In this document: in pieces, positions 1,068 to 2,373 of the stretch
Position numbering within the stretch: position 1 is the first letter of the stretch
Layout of the letters: each line of letters opens with the position of its first letter
Origin: Parcubacteria group bacterium GW2011_GWD2_42_14
GTDB taxonomy: Bacteria > Patescibacteriota > Minisyncoccia > Phycocordibacterales > UBA12088
NCBI GenBank assembly: GCA_000998045.1
Contig: LCCS01000013.1
Coordinates: 1-41,533, forward strand
Direction of reading: 5' to 3'
DNA: 41,533 bases
The notes under the pieces: model-generated
The model's input: the letters and a program-made list of their open reading frames with translations, nothing else
What the model was told of the DNA's origin: nothing
The model's database searches: none
Position numbers and translations under genes: made by a program

Positions 1068-1141
1068 GTCGGGGTAGCTCAGTTGGTTAGAGCACAACAC
1101 TCATAAAGTTGAGGTCGAGAGTTCAATTCTCTCCCCCGACA
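1068..1141 (+). tRNA. tRNA-Met (CAT)
   Basis: A cloverleaf can be drawn: acceptor GTCGGGG/CCCCGAC, D stem GCTC/GAGC, anticodon loop CTCATAA with anticodon CAT, T-arm GAGAG/CTCTC, discriminator A. The last anticodon-stem pair is an A-A mismatch. The acceptor starts with a normal G-C pair and the anticodon stem lacks the three G-C pairs of initiators, so it is elongator Met or possibly the lysidine-modified tRNA-Ile2, which also has CAT in its gene. CCA is not encoded. Confidence 0.9.
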
Positions 1142-1142
1142 C

Positions 1143-1184
1143 ATATAGAAAAAAGGAGGGTGGTCACCCTCATTTTTTCTATAT
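1143..1184 (+). terminator. long symmetric terminator hairpin behind tRNA-Met
   Basis: The arms at 1144-1162 and 1165-1183 pair over about 18 of 19 positions, with GAGGGTG/CACCCTC at the tip and A-run/T-run flanks. It should terminate on either strand. It separates the tRNA from the copy of its own 3' end at 1310. Confidence 0.8.
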
Positions 1185-1197
1185 AAAGCTTGGTAGT

Positions 1198-1329
1198 GAG
1201 AATTGAAAGCCGGAAGCGCGCGTGCCTAAGTACGAGTAAGCGCTGAGGCGGGGTCGAGAGTGCTTAGGATTTGAGGAGGTGCGATGAATAATCCTTAGCA
1301 ACTCGTGACCAATTCTCTCCCCCGACACA
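1198..1329 (+). repeat. tRNA-end hairpin element E1 (Met version)
   Basis: The right end (1310-1329) is a 20-nt exact direct copy of the 3' end of tRNA-Met (1124-1143). The left end, GAGAATTGAA (1198-1207), is an inverted copy of part of the same segment. The body has the helix GGTC/GACC, then GAGT/ACTC, then TGCTTAGGAT/ATCCTTAGCA with one T-T mismatch. Elements E2 and E3 after tRNA-Asp share this architecture, but their ends match tRNA-Asp. There is no ORF and the function is unknown. Confidence 0.8.
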
Positions 1330-1375
1330 AGTAAACATCTGCTCCAAGGTGGATGTTTTGCATTTGAAAGTTGCA

Positions 1376-1613
1376 ACTTTTTGATACGCTATCTCACTTC
1401 TGTCTCAAATTTGGTGAAGTGGTGTATTTAAAAGGTCTTTTAAAATTATAATTGTATTGTGTGGTGTAAATATATTGATATTAATCTACTTTTTTATATG
1501 GTATTTTTGTGAAAAAAACCACAAAGTACCTAACAAACACGCTATTTTCTTGCAAATACAATACTTGCGTAGTAAATACTAAGATTGTAGTTACCCAGTA
1601 CTAGCATTATAAA
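1376..1613. other. AT-rich intergenic region without a recognisable gene
   Basis: This is mostly low-complexity AT-rich sequence. An imperfect hairpin near 1500-1530 (GGTA...TTTGTG / CACAAA...TACC) is the only structure I see. It probably contains regulatory sequence for the gene at 1638. Confidence 0.5.
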
Positions 1614-1623
1614 ATGAGAATGC

Positions 1624-1629
1624 TATACT
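1624..1629 (+). promoter_or_regulatory. -10 box next to the start codon of the AbrB-like gene
   Basis: TATACT ends 8 nt before the ATG at 1638, so transcription would begin at or within a few nucleotides of the start codon. There is no Shine-Dalgarno site. This suggests a leaderless or nearly leaderless mRNA. Confidence 0.5.
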
Positions 1630-1637
1630 TTCTGCAT

Positions 1638-1823
1638 ATGGCACGAAGAAAATTAGAAGAAAGGAATGTACGCTCACTCTTTAAGCTTGCAGGCGGAAAG
1701 AGTTATGCGCTTACATTACCTATCGAGATTGTACGCATGTGGGGTTGGCAAGATCGCCAAAAACTCAAACTTACAATTGACGAAAAAAATAAGCGCGTCG
1801 TAGTCGAAGATTGGAAGAAGTAG
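1638..1823 (+). CDS. AbrB/MazE-like looped-hinge DNA-binding protein
   Basis: This 61-residue protein has a looped-hinge (SpoVT-AbrB/MazE) pattern: a basic N-terminus, a strand (SLFKLAGGKSYALTLP), the helix IEIVRMWGW, then an acidic turn and a strand (KLKLTIDEKNKRVVVEDW). Dimers of this fold bind DNA, either as transition-state regulators or as antitoxins. No toxin gene is adjacent, so a free-standing regulator is the simpler reading. The reading frame extends upstream to an ATG at 1614, but the ATG at 1638 fits the fold and the position of the -10 box better. Confidence 0.7.
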   Translation: MARRKLEERNVRSLFKLAGGKSYALTLPIEIVRMWGWQDRQKLKLTIDEKNKRVVVEDWKK

Positions 1824-1862
1824 GCTAGTAAGCGCAAGGATTGCAAGGCATGCTACATGCTC

Positions 1863-1891
1863 TTGTAATTTTTGCATACTTGCGGTACTCT
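1863..1891 (+). promoter_or_regulatory. promoter of tRNA-Asp
   Basis: TTGTAA (1863-1868), a 17-nt spacer, TACTCT (1886-1891), 16 nt before the tRNA. It has the same layout as the tRNA-Met promoter. Confidence 0.65.
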
Positions 1892-1907
1892 AATCTCGTT
1901 ACGTCCT

Positions 1908-1981
1908 GCGGACGTAGCTCAACTGGTTAGAGCACCCGCCTGTCACGCGGGAGGTTGAGGGTTCAAGTCCCTTCGTCCGCG
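1908..1981 (+). tRNA. tRNA-Asp (GTC)
   Basis: Acceptor GCGGACG/CGTCCGC, D stem GCTC/GAGC, anticodon stem CCCGC/GCGGG with loop CTGTCAC (anticodon GTC), T stem AGGG(T)/(G)TCCCT-type and discriminator G. All stems pair well. CCA is not encoded. Confidence 0.95.
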
Positions 1982-1989
1982 CAAAATGC

Positions 1990-2019
1990 TAAACCCAAAG
2001 CGAAAGCTTTGGGTTTTTG
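1990..2019 (+). terminator. terminator behind tRNA-Asp
   Basis: AAACCCAAAGC / GCTTTGGGTTT with a GAAA loop, followed by further T residues. It ends the tRNA-Asp transcript before element E2. Confidence 0.8.
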
Positions 2020-2029
2020 CAATTTTGTA

Positions 2030-2188
2030 GCGGACGAAGGGACTTGAAAGGCGGAGGTCGCGAAGCCGACTTCGGAGCGAAGCGGAGAAGGCGAGACCGA
2101 GCCTAGACGAAACACACTTACCATCTTTTCGAGCATTGCGAAGAAAAGTGGTTAGTGAAGTATCGTCAAGTCCCTTCGTCCGCGCAAA
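2030..2188 (+). repeat. tRNA-end hairpin element E2 (Asp version)
   Basis: The left end (2030-2048) is a perfect 19-nt inverted copy of the tRNA-Asp 3' end. The right end (2166-2188) is a perfect 23-nt direct copy of 1963-1985, running past the tRNA into its flank. The two ends can form a stem of about 18 bp. Inside, CACTTACCA pairs with TGGTTAGTG with one T-T mismatch. E1 and E3 have AGG/CCT at the place where E2 has ACC/GGT, a compensatory change. Confidence 0.85.
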
Positions 2189-2220
2189 CGCACAAAGCCC
2201 TTCGGGGCTTTTTGTGTGCG
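2189..2220 (+). terminator. terminator-like hairpin between E2 and E3
   Basis: GCACAAAGCCC, a TTCG tetraloop, then GGGC, T-run and GTGTGC. It is a strong hairpin directly behind the tRNA-end copy of E2, in the place the terminator at 1990 has behind the tRNA itself. Confidence 0.7.
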
Positions 2221-2373
2221 CGGACGAGCGAGCAAACTGCTTTGCTCCCGTAAGGGACTTGAAGATCGGAGTCATATCGCGAAGCGATAGACGAACTGGG
2301 GTCGCGACCACTTAGGATTTGAAGAGCTTGCTCTGAACAACCCTTAGTGAGTCGGACCAAGTCCCTTCGTCCG
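2220..2373 (+). repeat. tRNA-end hairpin element E3 (Asp version)
   Basis: The left end is an inverted copy of the tRNA-Asp 3' end, GCGGACGA then AAGGGACTTGAA, interrupted at 2228-2251 by a small hairpin (GAGCAAA/TTTGCTC). The right end CAAGTCCCTTCGTCCG (2358-2373) is a direct copy. The body has hairpin TATCGC-GAA-GCGATA and helix CACTTAGG/CCTTAGTG with the same T-T mismatch as E1 and E2, enclosed by GGTC/GACC as in E1. Confidence 0.8.

Follow-up and report, generated by a model that had tools for sequence, protein, structure and literature searches.

The closest described counterpart of the elements reported here is the RtT/rttR family of E. coli (RF00391), the 178-bp repeats of tyrT. An RNA processed from the tyrT operon has been described under the name rtT. 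In E. coli K-12, RF00391 has four matches at tyrT/tyrV, one after proK and one after lysV, and similar units are present after argV, argZ and argQ (argVYZQ, L229; L and G numbers are our handles for loci and genomes). A copy of the tail of the local tRNA (Tyr, GGGGAAGGAT...ATCCTTCCCC; Arg, GGGAGGAT...ATCCTCCC) forms the end of each of these units and is exact at proK and argVYZQ. An inverted T-arm copy closing the body is clear at tyrT and argV, partial at proK and weak at lysV; at proK (L227), the tail, terminator and unit start recur after the body. The annotated small RNA RttR starts just after tyrV and stops at the end of the copied tail. The 3′ ends of tRNA and tmRNA genes are also classical integrase targets. 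Among the papers searched, none dealt with such elements in Patescibacteria.

The window analysed here is a 41,533-nucleotide stretch of contig LCCS01000013.1 of Parcubacteria group bacterium GW2011_GWD2_42_14, whose assembly comprises 1.08 Mb in 44 contigs. An initial annotation had placed in it three hairpin elements following tRNA-Met and tRNA-Asp, each beginning with an inverted copy and ending with a direct copy of the tRNA 3′ end. All three were recovered on the + strand (E1, 1198-1329; E2, 2030-2188; E3, 2220-2373; Table 1), with the ends in that order and with the body helices and common T-T mismatch as described. The inverted copy of E1 is short, and that of E3 is split into acceptor and T-arm parts by a 9-bp hairpin, P1x, a feature that the annotation had missed. 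Only tRNAs scored above threshold in an Rfam scan of the window segment; microRNA-like matches were sub-threshold and reflect palindromes. A reading of the elements on the opposite strand was rejected, since the weak matches there overlap much stronger + matches. Downstream of E3, a reading frame that we take to be TspO/MBR-like (2437-2830) apparently runs into an early stop and resumes in a different frame.

Table 1. Features of the tRNA-Met and tRNA-Asp loci in the window (R, module of tRNA tail, hairpin and inverted tail)
Feature	Coordinates	Strand	Basis
tRNA-Met(CAT); the first R begins with its 3′ tail (from T-loop position 57)	1068..1142	+	ARAGORN, Rfam RF00005
Palindromic terminator-like hairpin, tRNA-Met/E1 interval	1143..1184	+	20-nt arms, 95% complementary
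E1 inverted copy of tRNA-Met T-arm, GAGAATTG	1198..1205	+	Sequence; short
E1 body, type A: GAA, P2 with GGA/GA loop, P3 TGCTTAGG/CCTTAGCA with T-T mismatch	1205..1310	+	Model R1, 67 bits, E 7.5e-14
E1 direct copy of tRNA-Met 3′ tail, CAATTCTCTCCCCCGACACA	1310..1329	+	20/20 vs 1124-1143
tRNA-Asp(GTC)	1908..1982	+	ARAGORN, Rfam RF00005
Terminator-like hairpin, tRNA-Asp/E2 interval	1991..2018	+	Sequence
E2 inverted copy of tRNA-Asp tail	2030..2048	+	19/19, 100% complementary to 1962-1980
E2 body, type B: P3 CACTTACC/GGTTAGTG with T-T mismatch	2046..2167	+	Model R1, 45.7 bits
E2 direct copy of tRNA-Asp tail and a few nt after the tRNA	2166..2188	+	23/23
Terminator-like hairpin, E2/E3 interval	2189..2220	+	Sequence
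E3 inverted copy, acceptor part, GCGGACGA	2220..2227	+	Sequence
E3 inserted 9-bp hairpin P1x, loop CTGC; constant module of most relatives	2228..2249	+	Model R3, 37.1 bits at 2226-2263
E3 inverted copy, T-arm part, AAGGGACTTG	2252..2263 region	+	Sequence comparison with tRNA-Asp
E3 body, type A: CACTTAGG/CCTTAGTG	2261..2358	+	Model R1, 98.6 bits, E 7.1e-22
E3 direct copy of tRNA-Asp tail	2358..2373	+	16/16

Three covariance models were used. R1 was seeded with four type A and B bodies without their ends (all eight bodies, when aligned with MAFFT, matched up badly at the 5′ end), and R2 was built from 103 distinct copies (108 rows). R3 covers the 37-nt 5′ module (P1x, GT, the T-arm copy and GAA); it is independent of the body and also detects type C loci. 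The initial annotation had named as refuting outcomes a search without further copies, or copies with unmatched ends and helices that do not covary. The search instead yielded further copies, whose ends fit the neighbouring tRNA and whose helices covary.

The element folds as a three-way junction. The inverted T-arm copy closes the body as stem P1, which reproduces the acceptor 3′ strand and T-arm of the host tRNA. In body types A and B, P2 has a GGA/GA loop and P3 has the CACTTAGG/CCTTAGTG helix. Type D has the same P2 and a different P3; in type C, the first domain is large and a small hairpin adjoins the tail. A hammerhead-like reading of the junction was rejected; the core motifs do not fit. 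In the 103 copies, pairing holds in 95.5% of cells, compared with 69.5% in shuffles and 32-39% in slid controls. Double changes occur in 27 of 29 pairs (676 double-change cells; 165 expected from shuffles). The unpaired letters kept across relatives are GGA/GA, T-T and GGG at the junction; 92 of the 103 copies keep the T-T mismatch and about 97 the internal loop GGA/GA (or GCA/GA).

G-U accounts for 2.2% of element pairs, compared with 6.6% in the stems of the tRNAs at the same loci (p 8e-9). The GT:AC ratio is 58:29 in elements and 57:8 in tRNA stems (2:1 vs 7:1; p 0.004). Thus, the element helices change mostly by Watson-Crick swaps. The low G-U content favours pairing at the DNA level or correction of the arms by template switching, and is less expected for RNA; it is an indirect pointer that may have other causes.

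Inspection of 30 of the 37 tRNA matches in the source genome revealed this anatomy downstream of Ala(TGC), Leu(TAA), Leu(TAG), Trp, Tyr, Arg(TCG), Arg(GCG) and Lys(TTT); additional 5′ modules or bodies follow Pro(TGG), Arg(CCT) and Glu(CTC). About 14 of the 37 tRNAs bear an element. At tRNA-Thr, -Val and -Ser (L006, L009 and L032), partial duplications of the tRNA 3′ end lie directly downstream without a body. At tRNA-Tyr (L029, 1586-2060), an ORF of ~80 codons lies between the tRNA and its element and is followed by a diverged copy of the tRNA tail, an arrangement that resembles the outcome of integration at a tRNA.

Of 61 order-level relatives, 45 were matched by model R1, at up to 18 copies per genome. 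R3 gave matches in 17 of 21 relatives, with 26 in one genome (G012). With ten candidates per genome scored by R2, at least 33 of 380 phylum genomes were matched: at least 11 of 17 from the same order (including the source genome), 4 from the same class and 18 from the rest of the phylum. The element is also present across the phylum Patescibacteria, in sparser form. All named records with the exact P2 pattern belong to Patescibacteria, some of them under Kaiserbacteria and Yonathbacteria labels.

Almost all copies are on the same strand as a tRNA or tmRNA gene and 40-450 nt downstream of it. Among 107 inspected R1 rows, about 95 have a same-strand tRNA within 600 nt upstream. The others include three that follow tmRNA (L103, L078 and L087), a kind of site absent from the initial annotation, as well as some at contig starts and a few remaining. 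At another of these loci (L062 in G040, 1694-1974, minus strand), an intron-bearing tRNA-Met call upstream of the element overlaps a group I intron (RF00028). With R3, 55 of 63 matches have a tRNA or tmRNA no more than 600 nt upstream, and another four are at contig starts. A further 20 loci, most of them from distant classes, gave 23 matches, of which 19 follow a tRNA, most with visibly matching ends. A T-run terminator separates the tRNA from the element in 39 of 66 first elements. It is a separate hairpin to which the element is additional, and the distance from terminator to body is only 24-58 nt, which leaves little room for a promoter upstream of the body.

We compared four tail-derived segments of the 66 first-position elements with their own tRNA and with other tRNAs. 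In the 5′ arm, the T-arm part matched the own tRNA at 8 or more of 9 positions in 42 of 66 elements (2.7% for other tRNAs), and the acceptor part at 7 or more of 8 positions in 31 (4.1%). In the 3′ copy, the T-arm part matched in 33 (2.9%) and the acceptor part in 35 (2.5%). Permutation of the tRNA labels gave an end-match score of 848 ± 18, compared with the observed 1262 (z = 23.5). The initial view, that the body is a conserved structure whose ends fit the host tRNA, was general enough for testing across genomes and is supported. One subtype, starting TTTAG-P1x, is an exception: its closing stem is unrelated to the tRNA, yet it is still mostly found downstream of one.

Near-identical bodies adjoin different tRNAs, each with different, matching ends. 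In G049, the bodies after Arg(CCT) and Arg(CCG) are 98% identical and differ in P1x. In G036, the 5′ modules after Lys(TTT) and Arg(TCT) are alike except for the 8-nt acceptor complement (GTCCGCCC / GTGCCCTC), and each fits its own tRNA.

The loci are organised as arrays R(body R)n, also missed initially, in which R is often split by the constant 9-bp hairpin. The first R begins within the tRNA (or tmRNA) gene, so that every insertion leaves an intact 3′ end. After a tRNA-Leu (L184), we observed two identical tandem units and a terminal R without a complete body. Arrays follow Leu(TAA), Lys and Leu(TAG) at L186. Two units at L134 have a common 5′ module and different bodies, and at a tRNA-Pro (L148) a direct repeat of ~55 nt (tail and terminator) lies on both sides of the insert.

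Turnover was evident in a comparison with a close relative (G005). At the orthologous tRNA-Met, whose flanks are 85-92% identical, the element body differs, and an A/G difference at tail position 57 is mirrored in both element ends. At the tRNA-Asp locus of this relative (L220, G005:C12:9500-13200, minus strand), only the first 9 nt of the tRNA are left at ~1350-1515 of the reversed locus, with GCGGACG joined to element remnants. Judged from the sequence, this is consistent with a deletion between the 5′ acceptor strand of the tRNA and the inverted arm of the element.

Two origins had been left open initially: capture of the ends from the tRNA, or selected pairing with it, for example as a decoy, anti-tRNA or processing RNA. 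Capture is better supported, because near-identical copies at different tRNAs differ exactly in the tRNA-matching stretch, because close relatives can have another body at the same tRNA with ends that still follow that tRNA, and because G-U pairs are unusually rare. Nothing that we found supports a role as decoy or anti-tRNA; by analogy with E. coli rtT, the direct copy may have a role in processing. The earlier proposal is thus partly supported.

The anatomy, distribution, covariation, end matching, array form and turnover between close relatives were observed directly, and the description of the elements is secure; the mechanism is not. The explanation that we favour, with belief and doubt about balanced, is that they are non-autonomous repeat cassettes associated with tRNA genes, whose ends are taken from the host gene and which are an architectural counterpart of E. 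coli RtT. New copies would arise at the T-loop, at the boundary of positions 56/57. A DNA process, either template switching or recombination on folded single-stranded DNA, would copy the resident tRNA tail into both ends, and the folded body would be what this process or its enzyme recognises. Elements would be lost by recombination between tail copies. The host replication/repair machinery or a single Xer-type recombinase could serve as the enzyme.

This explanation rests on the same-strand position of the copies just downstream of tRNA and tmRNA genes, on ends that track the resident gene, and on bodies common to different tRNAs (G049 and G036). The arrays and the direct repeat flanking the L148 insert also favour it, as does the replacement of the body at the orthologous tRNA-Met with ends that follow the tRNA difference. 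The rarity of G-U pairs is as predicted for DNA-level pairing or template-switch correction, and the terminator and short gap leave little promoter room. It is weakened by the constant hairpin between the acceptor and T matches, which a simple end-copying step does not explain, and by the conserved unpaired letters, which are usual for functional RNA. No clean pair of empty and filled orthologous sites was obtained, which also counts against it.

The search for a partner enzyme or carrier weakens it further, because no enzyme tracks the element and the patterns tried turned up no copy in viral contigs. Y1 (HUH) transposases, reverse transcriptases and extra tyrosine recombinases were rejected as partners. 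Y1 transposases are present in 38 of 61 genomes, their number does not track element copies, and none was found in the carriers G001 (100% complete, 9 copies), G003, G019 (also complete) and G047. Reverse transcriptases, present in 26 of 61 genomes, are absent from many carriers, and their number does not track element copies either; some element-rich carriers have neither of these enzymes. Tyrosine recombinases (PF00589) are present in 59 of 61 genomes, mostly as a single copy and mostly as one or two at most, and no tracking of element copy number was seen across the 61 genomes. Three exact pattern scans of viral contigs gave no match, or chance matches without tRNAs or model matches.

The strongest rival is a host-encoded family of structured RNAs, which we consider possible but less probable. 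Here, transcription would read through the tRNA into the element, and 3′-end processing enzymes would cut at the copied tail. The released P1-P2-P3 RNA would act in tRNA maturation, tRNA supply or protein binding, and the inverted arm would prevent the copied tail from misfolding with the tRNA. The very strong covariation and conserved internal loops, the orientation to the tRNA (fixed in the copies examined), the spread across the phylum and the extent of E. coli RttR all agree with such a family. However, terminator-like hairpins part the tRNA from the element in most loci, G-U content is low, most tRNAs of the source genome lack an element, and bodies at the same tRNA are swapped between close relatives.

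An integron-like system seems improbable to us. In it, R would serve as a recombination site in folded single-strand form and the structured bodies as cassettes, with circles inserted at the tRNA T-loop by a tyrosine recombinase. Different bodies do lie between near-identical R modules (L134, L184 and L186), integrases classically target tRNA and tmRNA 3′ ends, and the pairing is of DNA type. However, recombinase number does not track copies, and the bodies, which lack genes, form P1 by pairing with R. The attC core motifs were not seen: at the fold ends inspected, the R boxes RYYYAAC / GTTRRRY are absent, and the ends are GAA...C, adjoining the copy of the tRNA T-loop. That the elements are ordinary tRNA terminators with tail remnants of old integrations, alike only by chance, finds some footing in the bodiless duplications at Thr, Ser and Val, but is refuted by the model search, the cross-genome copies, the covariation and the permutation test, and we give it practically no credence.

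The cassette explanation has a wider form, which we put forward only tentatively: that one class of elements, found in two or more bacterial phyla, makes its home at tRNA and tmRNA genes, rewrites its ends to the local tRNA 3′ end and, having no enzyme of its own, spreads in the form of folded single-stranded cassettes. What process copies the end of a host gene into both ends of an insert is a sharply testable question raised by the end matching. The elements also bear on how tRNA loci of reduced genomes change, as in the apparent tRNA-Asp deletion in G005.

Among known systems, tRNA-associated external transcribed spacer RNAs, such as 3′ETS-leuZ of E. coli, also lie directly 3′ of tRNAs; unlike the Patescibacteria elements, 3′ETS-leuZ is annotated as a 67-nt trailer, and no tail copy was found after leuZ. 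REP/REPIN sequences with RAYT (Y1) are likewise short, non-coding, palindromic, numerous in a genome and mobilised in trans, if at all. In contrast, the Patescibacteria elements are near-absolutely associated with tRNA or tmRNA, their ends fit the site and Y1 is absent from several carriers; the RAYT (Y1_Tnp) transposase expected in the genome for REPIN/BIME was not found in G001, G003, G019 or G047. Integron attC/cassette arrays have in common with them foldable imperfect palindromes between cassettes and pairing at the DNA level, but differ in their integrase, their cassette genes and the origin of their ends; the Patescibacteria elements have no found integrase association and no cassette genes, and copy their ends from the host tRNA.

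RtT, a precedent not considered in the initial annotation, has the same layout as the Patescibacteria elements: tail, spacer/terminator, inverted T-arm, structured body and direct tail copy. Both form arrays with a partial last unit. The likeness is one of architecture, without homology of sequence or structure: R2 and R3 gave no match at the E. coli tyrT locus, and RF00391 gave none in the source genome or the window segment (the E. coli control was positive). RtT bodies are multi-branched and have neither the P1x hairpin nor the CTTAG helix, and RtT was seen here at a few E. coli loci, whereas the Patescibacteria elements occupy many sites per genome. The match in layout suggests a widespread class of elements living on tRNA genes, and the multi-copy Patescibacteria family provides a comparative handle on the nature of the E. 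coli tyrT/RtT repeats.
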